From contig NC_049980.1 in NCBI RefSeq assembly GCF_000003815.2, forward strand, positions 26,508,508 through 26,572,507: a DNA stretch of 64,000 nucleotides. The letters run 5' to 3'. Under the pieces are notes generated by a model. The model was not told where the DNA came from and ran no database searches. It was given only the letters and a program-made list of their open reading frames with translations. The translations under genes and the position numbers were made by a program. The DNA is from Branchiostoma floridae (lineage: Eukaryota; Chordata; Leptocardii; Amphioxiformes; Branchiostomatidae). This document shows, piece by piece, positions 34,001-63,517 of the stretch (its first letter is position 1; each line of letters begins with the position of its first letter).

Positions 34001-37000
34001 CGCTGAGCTGAATCATAAATGTGAGACTTACATCACTTCTTTATCAAAGACATGGCGGTTATTCCACTCGGTTATAGCAACGTCACATCATGGTTTCAAA
34101 CAGAAAACTTAAGAATGTTCTAAAGTAGATTATTGTAGCTGCTTTGGAATAATATTTTCAACGGAAACACTGGTGATCAATATGAGTTTGGATTGATCCA
34201 TATAGACTGACGCTTCATATACATATGACATTGGATGATACAAAGCTATGATGACATTTGTCCTTCTCCATAGCATACACTAGCAATTTACTATACATGT
34301 AGAGATTGAAATTTGCAAGTAATCTTTATCATCATGTTTCTATGTTCTAGTCATCCGCCATATCCAGCGCGACACCATCCACTTCGTGGGCGAGCTCGGG
34401 GAGGGGGCCTTCGGAAGAGTCTACCTCGGCAAATGCGAGAAGCTTAAACCCGACGAAGATGCCTCCCTGGTGGCGGTGAAGACGCTGAAGGAGATGAGTG
34501 TCGAGGACGCACGGAAGGACTTTGATCGGGAAGCGGAGCTCCTGACCAACATGCAGCATGAGAACATTGTGAAGTTCTACGGGGTCTGCACGGAGGGAGA
34601 GCCCTGGTTGATGATCTTTGAGTACATGGAAAACGGGGACCTCAACAACTACCTGAGGTATGGTAACCTCCAATACCAAGTTAGTGGTTCAAACACATCG
34701 TTTTTCGGTATCATAAATCTGTGTCAAAGCTCCCACTCGTCGCCCAATGGAGAAAATGAGGGACACAGATGATGATGGTTTGTTTAATGAACTAACGAGG
34801 CTTTTCATGATAATCGGATTTACTTTGGAAAATTAATTTCAAAGTCTGTTACGAACTTTACGGTAAGCAGACTTTGAATCATCACAGGACCTTAGATTTA
34901 ACACTTATTGAAGCATAATAAGACTGTACACAACCACACGTCAGTTTATTGCATCTTGTGAACCATTGCTATCACCGTGTTATTTTTGGACTACCAGTGT
35001 ATCGGTAAAGACTGAAGACTGATCTGATAGGTCAGGAGGCGATGTGACCACCCAAACCACATTCAAGCACATCTTATGTCAAAGTGTCTGCCAGTGACGT
35101 GTCACTATTTGCATAATCGTGTCTTATCGCCGTTTGATCTCATTAAGGACTACGCGACGAAAGCACACAAGCGAATAAATCCCAATCAAAACACTCGAGC
35201 CGCCAATTAGGGAGTTTGGGAAGACATGATGAACTTATCCCAGTCCCGACGGGGACATAGTCTGAATAATAACACTTCTTTTCTACACAGTATTACCCTT
35301 TACGTCCGACAGGTATAAGCCGGAGGGTAGACACATGAAAAACCAATCCTACCGAGTCTTTGTAATGACATTAAGCAACAGTTTTGTCCTTTCGTCCTTC
35401 TAGATAACTTTAATTATAGAAATGTTTTATTTTTGAACAAAACCATTTTTTAGTACAGGAATGATCTATCAGGGCTGTTAATGGATAAGAATAAGCACAT
35501 GGTCCACAGTCTAGACACCTCTGCTTGTATGTGCTAGCACTTGAACTTGGAATATAAGGCTTCACCTTTTGTCGACAGAAAAGGGGAGTGGCAGTATGTC
35601 CATCAAAACAGGGCCTATTACACATACAATTTACAGAAGTAGGTACAGTGAGTGCCATCATTACTGCTGAAATCATAAAAGGAATTTTCATTCACACAAT
35701 GATGTAAAACGCCGTATAATATTTTCGTTTCATCAAGTAGGTTATAGCCTCTTTGTTTGTTTGTTTTTCAGCAATACGGTCTTTATGAACGGTTTAGAGC
35801 ACGCTAGTCTTATACAAATATTGTGTGGAATGAACAAAAATTTAACTATGGCGTTCGACTGCAGATAATGATTATGATGATCATGAACTATCATTTCACG
35901 TACCCATAATTTCAATGTGAAGCCTATATCTCGATGTGAAGCCCCAGGCCAGTACCGGTAACTGTACGGCTTTCCATTATCCGATGTCTTCACTGGAATG
36001 TTAAACCCTTGATCATGCAGATCTCACGGTCCTGACGCGGCCTTCCTGATCAAGAACCCGGCCACTCACAAGGAGCTGAGCATCGTGGAGCTGCTGCAGA
36101 TCTCTGTGCAGGTCGCCTCCGGTGTGGAGTACATGGCGTCGCAGCACTTCGTGCACCGGGACCTGGCCACACGCAACTGTCTGGTGGGGGACAAACTCGT
36201 GGTGAAGATCGGAGACTTCGGGATGTCTCGGGACATCTACAGCACCGACTACTATAGAGTGAGTCGAAAAGCCTGTTTATTCTGTTCTTTAGAAATCTTG
36301 TCCTTAGTATATACCAATTAATAACACTTTGCATCACTTTTAAACACTCTTGTATGCTCTTTGAAACACTCTATTCTATACAGACAGTAGAGCGATGTAA
36401 CTCATGTTGTGCCCTAAGCGCTGCAAAGATTACCAATAAAAGTGACAGAGGAAATTAGATCATAACGACATCACACCAATCACAAGAAACTGAAACAACA
36501 ATGAGCTTGGGTAGAAGAATCAGAAACAACTTTGCAAAATATATCTAAATGTTTCCAGTAGTCCCAAAGGTATTTTCACAGTTTGTATTACACATGTACA
36601 TATCTTACGAGTAATGTCCAATGCCTAGAATGCATTTCTACTTTCTACCCTANNNNNNNNNNNNNNNNNNNNNNNNNNNNNNNNNNNNNNNNNNNNNNNN
36701 NNNNNNNNNNNNNNNNNNNNNNNNNNNNNNNNNNNNNNNNNNNNNNNNNNNNNNNNNNNNNNNNNNNNNNNNNNNNNNNNNNNNNNNNNNNNNNNNNNNN
36801 NNNNNNNNNNNNNNNNNNNNNNNNNNNNNNNNNNNNNNNNNNNNNNNNNNNNNNNNNNNNNNNNNNNNNNNNNNNNNNNNNNNNNNNNNNNNNNNNACTG
36901 CTCACATTAGATAGATCCATACCAGGTACTGTTTAAACCCTGGTCAAGCCCCTAGAAGACTGAGGGTCGACATCTTAAAGTCAGGAGACAATGTTCCATG

Positions 37001-59200: not shown

Positions 59201-60057
59201 GATTAGCCGTTACCTTTACCCCAACCATTTTATAATTTTTATTTTTATTTTCATTTCGCCCTTTCGCTCCATATTTTTTATGAAAAAATCCGTGAACCAA
59301 GAAATTAAAATGGTGTGGCCTAATGCACCAAAGAGATGAGGCAGACATGACACTTCACTATACTTGCAACACATTAACTTGCAGATTTATGGCAGTGAAT
59401 GCATGCCTTTGAATTAAAGGCAAGATACAACCAGACAGAAAATTGTGTGAAATGTGGCAAAAAAGACTTTTGATGTACTATATTTTTAGACTGAGATTTT
59501 TCTGATCAAAATGATTTTCATCCTCTACCAGATGACAGGCGCGTTTGAGCCTGGATATTACCTCTTCATGGATGACTTCCCCATGACAAAAAGTGAACGC
59601 AAGGTTGGTTCTTTCTTGTTATGGCCATTCTAAGTAGACAACCATGTACAATGTACTGTAACTGCATGCCTTTATGTAAACATGGAACTAATATATTACC
59701 AGATTAACTAATAAATATTACATAAAAATATTGTCATATTTATCTTGGTATGACCAAGCCAGGATTTGAACTTAAAAATTTGAAATAATTCTTCACCATA
59801 TTCTATTAAAAGTTAGTTTCATTGTTGTTACAGTATCAAGACTTTTTCTTACCCTTAATTTTTTTTTCAAAATGTGTCTTCTTTTCCCTACACCCCATTA
59901 AGACGACTTTTGGGATTTCCTCAACAAAATCCATTTTGTGTGGCATCTTTCAATTGTATCCCTTCACACTATACTTAAATTATTTTTTCAGATTGATGTT
60001 AAAGCACTAAAGCGGAAAGCCATAAGAGAGTTGGGCCTGCCAACAGAAGAAACGTGA
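50279..60057 (+). CDS. ACSF2: ACSF2-like acyl-CoA synthetase
   Basis: Eighteen exons: 50279-50437, 50917-51045, 52049-52108, 52676-52806, 53060-53107, 53508-53625, 54050-54145, 54637-54776, 55169-55266, 55781-55857, 56134-56238, 56604-56752, 57352-57406, 57571-57660, 58326-58378, 58796-58856, 59532-59603, 59992-60057. They join to 568 aa. The ANL-superfamily enzyme adenylates a fatty acid with ATP, then forms the CoA thioester. Visible motifs are TSGSTGLPK (214-222, ATP loop), YAMTE (355-359), TGD (436-438) and GRSKD (452-456). The GVPH...EEICICIILKDGE segment resembles vertebrate ACSF2. Some core positions are altered: the A8 hinge has DDENVYP where GGENIYP is usual, and the C-terminal Gly-Lys motif reads SERKID. 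Catalysis may therefore differ. No mitochondrial presequence is visible, unlike human ACSF2 (615 aa). Exons 2 and 12 use AAG acceptors. Confidence 0.92.
51378..51818. mobile_element. hAT-like MITE, 441 bp
   Basis: The ends TAGGGCTGGGTACCGGTACGG and the inverted TAGGGGTGGGTACGGTACGG form the terminal inverted repeats. Flanking 8-bp sequences TTAACGGT (51370-51377) and TTAACGGC (51819-51826) match at 7 of 8 positions, the hAT duplication length. The interior is full of GGTCCAGG/CCTGGACC palindromic runs and has no transposase. It lies in ACSF2 intron 2. Confidence 0.8.
52326..52566 (-). mobile_element. tRNA-derived SINE with T-rich tail
   Basis: On the minus strand the 5' end (about 52566-52500) resembles a tRNA. 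It has an A box, TGGCGCAACGG, then a GCGTTGGAGTCAGAATC anticodon-arm-like part, then a degraded B box around GAGTTCTAAACTC. A non-tRNA body follows and the element ends in about 27 T (the A run at 52326-52349 on the plus strand). It lies in ACSF2 intron 3. The acceptor stem does not pair, so it is not a working tRNA gene. Confidence 0.65.
54832..54961 (+). mobile_element. 3' tail of a non-LTR retrotransposon (LINE)
   Basis: A 30-codon frame at 54832-54924 reads LTYVDQLARDVG, a LRVEDVKN segment and DRVFWKE before a stop. It resembles the C-terminal tail of the reverse-transcriptase ORF in LINEs annotated as craniofacial development protein 2-like. It is followed by a short GATGATGATG tail, as in RTE-type 3' ends. 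Everything upstream is missing, so this is a 5'-truncated insertion in ACSF2 intron 8. The clade is inferred from memory of the motif. Confidence 0.65.
58961..59320. mobile_element. Harbinger-like MITE, 360 bp
   Basis: The terminal inverted repeats begin GGCCACACCA at both ends and continue as AATTTAATTCCTTGGTTCACGG against the inverted right arm with few changes. TAA flanks each side (58958-58960 and 59321-59323), fitting the three-base TWA/TAA target of PIF/Harbinger elements. The interior is AT-rich and non-coding. It lies in ACSF2 intron 16. Confidence 0.75.
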
Positions 60058-60984
60058 ACAGTATAAGTATGATCACTAAAAACTTGTCAGCAACATTAGA
60101 CATCACGGAGCGGACAAATCTAAAAACAGACAAGATGGTCGCCATACTGATGTCTTGCTTCTTGCTCCTTACATTGTGACATGTGCAATTGTTCATTCTG
60201 GAATATATTTACTTAGAGATTGAATGAGGGAGGATGTAGATCATGTCATATCATATCATAAAAAATTAAATTATAAGCACTATAATTTTCAAAATATATC
60301 AAATCATTTCAAGCAATAATTCATCAATTTTATTGTTGATTTTACAGACACAAAAGTCTATTGATGTGATTGGTTAAGAATGTGTAAAGATTTACTCCAT
60401 CAGAAAGAAGACTTTCTCTAAAGATGTGAGCATACAAACTGTGTCCTATAGATGTTTAGTGCTACTTAAAGTCTCAAATCATAATCAATTTGAACATATA
60501 AATCTACAGTAACCTATGTCAGTTGTAAAACTGATCTTATAAACTTTGGTTGACCATATCAATTGTCCTGTTATCAATTGTATTGTATCATAAATCATTG
60601 GGAAGTTTATCTTTTACCATTTATCACAATTAATACCTGTATATTATGGTCATTATTTGAGACAAGCAACCAGGCTGTTACTGTGACTGGGTTGAAAAAT
60701 CAGTCAAGCTGTTCCCTGCACAAAAGCATAATCATCGCAGCTGGGGTCTCATTATGAAGGGCAATAATCATGTCTTTCAATGATTTAAGACACACTGCTA
60801 ATCTATAAAAAAAAACAATGGACTCTTGAGATAAAGGTAAATCTTTTGCGACTATCAGTAACTGCATCAAATGCAAGTATACTTTTACTGCTTTCAAAAC
60901 TTTTACACCAGAAAAAATATAAACAAATCAACAAAAGGAATGTCTTAAACATAGAGGAACACAATTCTGAATCTTAGTTGTCAC
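60058..60984. other. convergent intergenic region, ACSF2 and SUB1
   Basis: About 0.9 kb between the two stop codons, so it must hold both 3' UTRs. ATTAAA-type signals occur near 60266 on the plus strand. AATAAA on the minus strand lies at 60329-60334. The transcripts may overlap at their 3' ends. No other content is seen. Confidence 0.45.
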
Positions 60985-63517
60985 TCAGCCTTCAATGGCC
61001 TGGACTTTCTCATCTATGTCCTCCATAGCTGCCTTAAGTTTCTCCCACTGGTCTTTGCTCAGGGCGATGCCTGGAAAGAAGAAGAAACAGAAACTTTGTC
61101 ATTGGCAAGATTCAGCACTATTGAGTCAAAACTGTCCATCTGTATAATCATTCCAACCAACACCACAGATGAAGCAGTCTGGTAAAGATTTGTTGATGGA
61201 TTTCTGAAGACTCAATAAATATGTAATTTCTAAGCTGCATTGTTTTTTTTATTGTTCTGGTTGATGTATTGACAATAGCTGCAATATTTCCTTCTGTGTA
61301 TAGTAGAAGACATTTTCTTGGTGTTGTAGTTTGATGCGGACAAGTACAAGCTGTGCAGTATAGCTAGTGTCTGTTGTTATTTTATGCATTAAGCCATACA
61401 CATGCAACAGCTCATAAAAATAACGTTTCTGCAGATTGCTGAGCTATTCATGTTGTTTGACTATATCTTGTACTAGTATATATCTTGTCATGGAACAGGG
61501 AATAATGTGTGTTACTTTCATTAGTGGCCAACTTATTCAGAGCAAACATCTACTAGTAATGTAACAGTGTTAGAAACATAAGAGACAAATGTTCCAAAAG
61601 AATGAAGAAACAAATAACCAAATAACTAAGCTGAAAACCCAAATCAGTATATGAAGATGCTGGCAAGCGAAAAAAGACACACCAAGGCGTAAGAGATAAG
61701 GCTTGCGAAAATCAACCATGATCATGAACAACTGATAAGTTATGCCACAGCAGCACACCGCAAACACCTTTCCACAGGTTCCATTGCATGCTGGAAGATG
61801 TGGAGCACTACAATACCATTACAGTTTACACATTCAGCAAAAGGATGAGTATTGTGTCTTTTCTGTTGTCACCGTAATTGATGTTGTTTGCCCCCTGCCC
61901 TACTCATACTATATGTTATAGTGTTATGTGGCTCCCAGCATGCAGTGGGATCCAAGAGAAGGTCTACCCACTACAGCTACACGTACCAGTACCACAACTA
62001 CTACTACTACTACTAGTACTACTAGTACATGTACTACACACGGCAAAAGAAGTACACGGCAATACAACAGACATTGTCAGTCATCCATCTAGATCCGCGA
62101 TTTTCTCATCAATGTCGTCCACAGCTTCCTTTAACCTGCGCCACTGGTCAGTGGTCAGTGAAATGCCTGGAAATGTAACGACACAACCATTGGCCCTAAT
62201 AAATCAGGCAGGAACTGCAGACAAAAAGCTTTGTACGAACGAAAATCCTACTGAGCTACTAAAGCGAAGCTGCAGCTTTGTGATGGAGTCATTAGTAGAT
62301 CAAAAGAAACAGAACCTTGTTCCCCCGTATGGGAAAACTTGCATTGGCAAACACATCTAGCTGGTTGTTGTAAAGCTGGGTGTATAGAAAATGACATATG
62401 CAACTGAGGACGCTCAGGACGGGTTCAAGATCTTTCACAACAAAACAAATTAGCAAAGCTTATGGACATGTGGCGTCAGCAATTGATAAAAACAGCCAGG
62501 AAGTTATCACTACCCACTATCTCTGCCGAGTGAAGGTTAGTTGGTGTGCCCTGATGAAAAAGGGCAAACTTTGACTGTCTGATTAAACAGTATCATGTAC
62601 ATGGCATTGGGACAGAAAGCATAGTATGGCATGGTGATTCGATTTTCATATGTCCTGAGAACTCAGATGACAGTAGCCTAGTGTTCCAGTGATCTGGTCT
62701 TCAAATGTGCATTCTGTCCCACCCATGTAGGACACCTAGCAAGGCGGTCGTCACATCAGCTGCCAATGTCACATGTCCATGGCATAAGATGACTAGTCAC
62801 TTGAATTTTTAGGAAGGCTATTCAGGTCACTTGAAAATTATGAATAAGTTATTTCAGGTGCCTTGAGGGAGACAGCCTCTTGGCCCTGGTTTGGTAGAAA
62901 CCTGCTGTCTATGGCGATTACTTCTGCTCCGTACCTGGAGTAGTTGGCTTAGACAAATTTCATAGAATTTGTTTGGTCTATTGAAACAAGTACCGGTTTT
63001 CCCCTCCTTGTGCACCTGTTTTTATGAATTCTTTTCTGTATTGCTTTATGCATTTTGTTGTCTGAATAAATAAACAAACAACAAGCAAACAAACAAACAA
63101 GTCAAAATTCTCTTAACTTATCTTACCTTTCTTCCCTGGTTTCAGCTCTCCACCTGCATCATAGTACTCTCTGATATCTATCAGGCACTTCCCCTTAAAC
63201 TCACGCACACTGACGTAGCGCTTGTTAGATAACTGAAGGGAAAAATAGATGAAATGGCAGATGTTAATTCTTCTCCTAATGCAATGATTGTACGAACAAT
63301 TAGGGCAGAGTTTAGACAAGTATTTGTATCATTCATATTTCTGTTAAACTTTTTGCATCCTACTTATTCAAATTGGTCATTGTTTACTAAAAATGCCACA
63401 AAACAAATTTAACCTCAAAAGTAATGCACTTACCTGAATCATATCGCTACCTTCGTCCTCTTCCCTTTCAGCCTTCTGCTTCTTTTTTTTCTCCATCTTT
63501 CTTTTCTTTGCTGCTTT
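60985..63517 (-). CDS. SUB1: SUB1/PC4 transcriptional coactivator, 5' end outside window
   Basis: Minus-strand exons 63434-63517, 63127-63232 and terminal exon 60985-61070 give 91 codons plus stop. The first exon is a basic-acidic linker ([13 protein letters not shown] ... [12 protein letters not shown]). The second carries the single-strand-DNA-binding core ([20 protein letters not shown], then [10 protein letters not shown]). The last is the C-terminal dimerisation helix ([20 protein letters not shown]). PC4 is a nuclear protein that binds melted promoter DNA and bridges activators with the RNA polymerase II machinery. The N-terminal exon or exons, with the start codon, were not found before the window edge. 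A second, intact last exon at 62081-62166 can replace the distal one (separate entry). Intron phases (0, then 1) are identical for both versions. Confidence 0.92.
61248..61253 (-). promoter_or_regulatory. candidate poly(A) signal for the short SUB1 transcript
   Basis: TTTATT on the plus strand (AATAAA on the minus) about 830 nt after the proximal stop and upstream of the distal terminal exon. Position fits alternative polyadenylation; not proven. Confidence 0.4.
61997..62035. repeat. (ACT)n microsatellite
   Basis: ACTACTACT run passing into ACTAGTACT units, located just downstream of the proximal SUB1 stop codon in transcript orientation. Confidence 0.8.
62081..62166 (-). CDS. SUB1: alternative terminal exon of SUB1
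   Basis: An 86-nt minus-strand exon with its own acceptor (ACATTTCCAG), correct phase and stop codon. It encodes [20 protein letters not shown] and ends DLDG. It has exactly the length of the distal terminal exon at 60985-61070 and matches it at 15 of 28 residues, with the stop at the same codon. It keeps the GIS(L) start seen in vertebrate PC4, while the distal version reads GIAL. A minus-strand AATAAA at 61248-61253 lies between the two exons and could end the short transcript. An ACT-repeat tract (about 61997-62035) would be in its 3' UTR. Splicing to either exon is mutually exclusive because both stop. Confidence 0.8.

Follow-up and report, generated by a model that had tools for sequence, protein, structure and literature searches.

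Can the SUB1/PC4 gene of the amphioxus Branchiostoma floridae end in two alternative ways? The gene lies on the minus strand, at the right-hand edge of the window (the whole stretch of DNA analysed here, 64,000 nucleotides), and a preliminary description of the sequence had proposed that its last exon occurs in two mutually exclusive copies, which exchange the dimerisation helix of the protein. Human SUB1 is not known to have more than one exon for this C-terminal segment. In our judgement it is likely that the last coding exon of amphioxus SUB1 underwent an old tandem duplication, and that splicing from the donor at 63127 can lead to either the proximal copy (P) or the distal copy (D), which would yield two proteins of 113 amino acids.

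Structure and identity of the gene

The coding exons read from the sequence are the following (a slash marks the exon-intron boundary).

64081-64016, minus strand: likely coding exon 1, 66 nt, just beyond the window (locus L009), with a predicted start codon
63434..63517, minus strand: coding exon 2, 84 nt, phase 0, with the boundaries cag/AAAGCAG and ATTCAG/gtaagt; the frame joins
63127..63232, minus strand: coding exon 3, 106 nt, the beta-sheet core of the PC4 domain, ending in the donor common to both last exons (AAAG/gtaaga at 63127)
62081..62166, minus strand: proximal last coding exon P, 86 nt, ending in a stop; Gly codon split by the intron
60985..61070, minus strand: distal last coding exon D, 86 nt, ending in a stop; Gly codon split by the intron

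The last intron would measure 960 nt with P and 2056 nt with D, and a gap of 1010 nt separates the two exons. Joined to either P or D, the upstream exons, the likely exon 1 included, give a complete PC4 protein of 113 amino acids in an unbroken frame. The identification of the gene as SUB1/PC4 was borne out by the Pfam PC4 profile (PF02229), to which the 91-aa spliced pieces (all exons except exon 1) matched with 88.9 bits for P and 88.4 bits for D, above the curated cut-off of 25, and by the solved structures, among which the best relatives were human PC4 chains (P: E 3.3e-21, 78.6 bits; D: E 4.7e-20, 74.8 bits), followed by MoSub1. The peptide of exon 3 alone scored 61.5 bits, P or D each adding about 27 bits to this core exon, with a profile match that ends at residue 78 of 91, i.e. 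15 residues into the alternative segment. In the core exon 24 of the 36 columns aligned with human PC4 are identical. The N-terminus, read by eye, is short, with acidic/Ser and Lys-rich stretches preceding the domain; the peptide of exon 2 consists of a Lys-rich and an acidic stretch. A short N-terminus of this composition is a defining trait of the SUB1/PC4 family. By analogy with the human and MoSub1 structures, amphioxus SUB1 is expected to form homodimers which bind ssDNA.

The PDB search with P found 11 sequences, among them five TIM barrels of artificial design, aligned to residues 60-80 with E values from 2.4e-4 to 0.04. These were absent from the search with D and are taken to be chance helix matches.

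Relationship of the two last exons

P and D are equally long, both are preceded by AG, they stand in the same phase behind the donor at 63127, and their TGA codons are in the identical place. They share 60 of 86 nucleotides. At the protein level 14 of 27 residues are identical, which becomes 15 of 28 if the common Gly of the split codon is counted. The preliminary description had given two intact 86-nt exons with the same phase, length, stop position and donor and with 15 of 28 residues in common, and its coordinates were exact. When the 28-aa peptide of P or D was compared by tblastn with the whole window, only these two places were found (E 1.1e-8 or better), the next-best matches having E values of 0.16 (P) and 0.30 (D). 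In the BLASTN comparison the similarity extended over 62173-62074 and 61077-60978 (73%, E 3e-12; the next match had E 0.064), thus it ended approximately 7 nt outside the exons on each side, and none was detectable beyond. Because the flanks lack detectable similarity, the duplication is probably old. Chance resemblance of P and D was ruled out by the window-wide tblastn search together with the neutral simulation described below. P and D lie next to each other, are homologous, have equal phase and can substitute for one another in frame, as is characteristic of tandem duplicated exons.

The genome (513,431,437 bases in 431 contigs) was searched for further copies. A DNA search with 60900-62300 (1401 nt), of a kind that passes over simple repeats and very common words, revealed no second copy of P or D in the genome: one of the 71 matches was the query's own locus, and all the others (70) fell within query positions 260-337, a TAG-rich repeat, or 491-535, both outside the exons. 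The Pfam PC4 search of the genome gave at least 36 matches, of which the best was the SUB1 core exon (60.6 bits), the remaining 35 listed matches scoring 52.1 bits or less. A SUB1 retrocopy could reveal which exon is in use; none scoring like SUB1 was found among these at least 36 matches, in a hunt that covered the loci of seven of them (L002-L008) and the frames in L002, L003, L004 and L008, and which decayed or short retrocopies could escape.

It is conceivable that the pair is an artefact of the assembly, consisting of two alleles or of a mis-joined paralogue placed in tandem, since haplotype separation was used to obtain one reference for B. floridae, according to the available text of PMC7269912. 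However, the copies differ at 13 of 27 residues and 26 of 81 coding bases, which is too many for alleles, their flanks are not detectably alike, the only run of N in the window (36653-36896) is far off, and the genome search found no further copy of the exon. We consider such an error highly improbable.

The genomic PC4 matches other than SUB1 had a pattern of their own. Twenty-six of the 35 listed lay in pairs, 13 in all, each made up of two neighbouring PC4 stretches; the pairs were spread over 12 contigs (C2, C3, C4, C7, C9, C11, C12, C13, C15, C16, C17 and C158). In L004 (G000:C12, ~5280358-5280774), the paired locus covered by the Pfam scan, the pair forms one open frame of 251 aa (94.7 bits), and two other frames occur together with it, one with an integrase core (rve, 48.1 bits) and one of the Bcl-2 family (48.8 bits). 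This arrangement looks like cargo of Polinton/adintovirus-like elements. No paper on PC4 in such mobile elements was found among those listed. In the bay scallop two of five 'PC4 genes' are described as single-exon, with 212 aa (PMC9223095, available text); by analogy, these might be mobile-element PC4 rather than cellular SUB1. A further open frame in the window, at 34323-34772 on the plus strand, carries a partial tyrosine kinase domain (PF07714, 95.4 bits).

Constraint on the two copies

The 26 base differences between P and D fall 7, 7 and 12 on the first, second and third codon positions. The dN/dS ratio of the copies, a check which the preliminary description had suggested, was about 0.33 by NG86 (dN 0.32, dS 1.00); maximum likelihood gave dN 0.32 and dS 1.91, and it must be noted that with 27 codons dS is a rough value, for which LWL85 and YN00 gave no estimate. 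In a neutral simulation, in which 26 differences were placed in 81 bases (20,000 runs in each direction), the frame was open in 40-42% of the runs and at least 14 residues were kept in 6-11%, but the conservativeness of the observed replacements, measured by BLOSUM62, was matched in just 0.06% and 0.015% of the runs in the two directions. The open frame and the identity are by themselves weak evidence; it is the nature of the changes that shows constraint.

The comparison with the human helix, to which P is identical at 12 and D at 10 of 25 positions, separates the two copies. When D was allowed to drift neutrally by 26 differences, the resulting copies matched the human helix at 4.9 of 25 positions on average, and the 12 matches of P were reached in 0.015% of the cases; for drift from P the mean was 5.6 of 25, and the 10 matches of D were reached in 1.3%. 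With 13 differences placed on one copy, the observed match was reached neutrally in 0.2% (P) and 23% (D). Because of this last figure, it is the joint test and the profile score that carry the case for constraint on D. These comparisons show constraint most clearly for P, whose acceptor is the weaker of the two.

Splicing signals and 3' ends

The signals around the two last exons are listed below.

62167..62191, minus strand: acceptor of P, weak pyrimidine tract (13/20)
61071..61095, minus strand: acceptor of D, strong pyrimidine tract (19/20)
61248..61253, minus strand: AATAAA between P and D, candidate poly(A) signal of the P form, 828 nt past the stop of P
60329..60334, minus strand: AATAAA downstream of D, candidate poly(A) signal of the D form, a match to the consensus only

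Because the pyrimidine tract of its acceptor is the poorest of the four read (the others have 15, 17 and 19 pyrimidines), P may be rarely used. Taken further, this could mean that SUB1 makes one protein in practice and that one of the copies, P being the likelier, is a relic of the duplication which is dead or hardly used at all; the frequently open frame of the neutral simulation would also favour such a reading. Nevertheless P is nearer to human PC4 than D is, both in the helix and in the score against the solved human chains, the changes are more conservative than neutral, and the acceptor AG, the phase and the stop have all been retained at a dS of about 1 or more. We think it unlikely that either copy is such a relic.

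There is no credible donor after P: the best donor-like site between P and the acceptor of D scored 7.3 bits with a donor matrix, compared with 10.0, 10.8 and 12.7 bits for the three donors of SUB1 itself and a median best score of 8.1 in 300 shuffles. As these donor-like sites are weak, P is best read as a terminal exon. For the same reason, and because each exon carries a stop, P and D are best read as alternative last exons, a class in which each exon has its own stop and needs no donor, and not as classic internal mutually exclusive exons, of which each would have an acceptor and a donor and would be spliced to one downstream exon common to both. With a stop in each exon, one protein can use just one of them. 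The terms mutually exclusive and swaps in the preliminary description are inferences about splicing, which go beyond what DNA can show.

In alternative last exons each exon also has a poly(A) site to itself. The AATAAA at 61253 is compatible with such a site for the P form, and is not proof of one, since the motif arose in 46% of shuffles of the P-D interval. A convergent gene may end at ~59992-60057 on the plus strand, where a frame reads, after an AG, QIDVKALKRKAIRELGLPTEET up to a stop; this is close to where transcripts of the D form may end.

Under the duplication reading that we favour, the donor at 63127 would be spliced either to the acceptor of P, with the 3' end of the transcript in the P-D interval, or to the acceptor of D, with the 3' end beyond D. 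The two predicted forms would have in common the acidic/basic N-terminus and the ssDNA-binding sheet, and would differ at 13 of their last 27 residues, in the end of the last strand and in the dimer helix. Exclusivity would follow from the anatomy, from the stop in each exon and from the lack of a good donor in P. Two processes probably compete for the choice of exon: 3'-end formation at P, which has the weak acceptor, and splicing to D, which has the strong one. Use of the exons in RNA, the poly(A) sites and a functional difference between the products are predictions; what the sequence shows is two intact exons which diverged conservatively, and no second copy of them was found in the genome.

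Predicted consequences for the protein

In solved structures the C-terminal segment of PC4 is the helix of the dimer interface (PMC4350104, available text), and the preliminary description was right to place the swap there. It had also suggested that the two forms may dimerise differently. This is not supported, and a difference in dimerisation is not indicated: the modelled hydrophobic face of the helix holds just identical or similar residues. On a helical wheel of positions 7-26 six of its nine residues are identical, and the other three are V/M, I/V and L/I. Six of the 11 exposed positions differ between P and D, among them position 10, where a change from R to E alters the charge. The wheel is idealised and is not a structure, and 3 of 9 vs. 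6 of 11 changed positions are too few to claim a difference between the faces. The net charge of the 28-aa peptides is -4 for P and -3 for D. T90 and Q93, the DNA-contacting positions of MoSub1 in the available text of PMC4350104, align by our own count along the alignment to T/S and Q/Q of P/D. We expect both forms to fold, to dimerise and to bind ssDNA, and it is possible that they differ in their outside contacts; the differing exposed positions could tune the contacts with partners.

It is also possible, although less likely than not, that both forms are made with functionally equivalent helices, each last exon having its own poly(A) site, and that the main effect of the exchange is on the 3' UTR and the regulation of the message. 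The similarity of the hydrophobic faces and of the DNA-contacting positions would agree with this, as would the P form's own UTR, which would be ~830 nt or longer if the AATAAA at 61253 is used. The differences on the exposed face, including the R to E change of charge, speak against equivalence. At the other extreme, the exon pair could provide a dimer code, in which P/P, D/D and P/D dimers differ in stability or partner surfaces and are chosen by cell type, so that the cofactor is tuned by the choice of 3' end. We mention this as a speculation and regard it as quite unlikely.

If the gene makes both forms, as the duplication reading predicts, a basic transcription cofactor would exist in two versions which differ only in the last segment, mostly the dimer helix, and P and D would be a clean natural pair for probing roles of this helix beyond dimerisation. 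For such exon swaps the available text of PMC9741552 stresses nervous, cardiac and muscle settings, and SUB1 would then add a case of another sort.

Comparison with known systems

Among the listed titles and abstract starts of open-access papers we found no matching case for amphioxus SUB1/PC4 or for SUB1/PC4 isoforms. The words amphioxus and Branchiostoma are absent from the available text of the bay scallop PC4 paper (PMC9223095). Homologous exon substitutions are reported to be enriched among tissue-specific events (PMC7561204), in the available text of which nothing was found on SUB1.

The closest protein for comparison is human SUB1/PC4 (1pcf, 2c62, 4usg, 6ycs), which has both the domain and the C-terminal segment in common with amphioxus SUB1. 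The two differ at W89 of human PC4, which is Tyr in amphioxus (in REYY, window 63127-63232, minus strand), as it is in MoSub1; the change W89Y is reported to alter the mode of ssDNA binding (PMC4350104, available text).

As an arrangement, P and D resemble the human tandem duplicated exon substitution events, of which, in the available text of PMC9741552, 77 of 236 are C-terminal swaps: these also involve adjacent homologous exons with mostly conservative changes, and large hydrophobic residues are altered least. SUB1 and PC4 are absent from the main text of that catalogue, as far as available, and in amphioxus the expression of both forms is predicted. A second likeness is offered by COE/EBF of vertebrates, where a duplicated exon codes for a helix of the dimerisation motif in a DNA-binding regulator (PMC2394523, available text). 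There, however, both helices are present within one protein, whereas in SUB1 the stop in each exon would allow one helix per protein. Based on its sequence features, the P/D pair of SUB1 is a good candidate for a further case of the established C-terminal tandem exon swaps.
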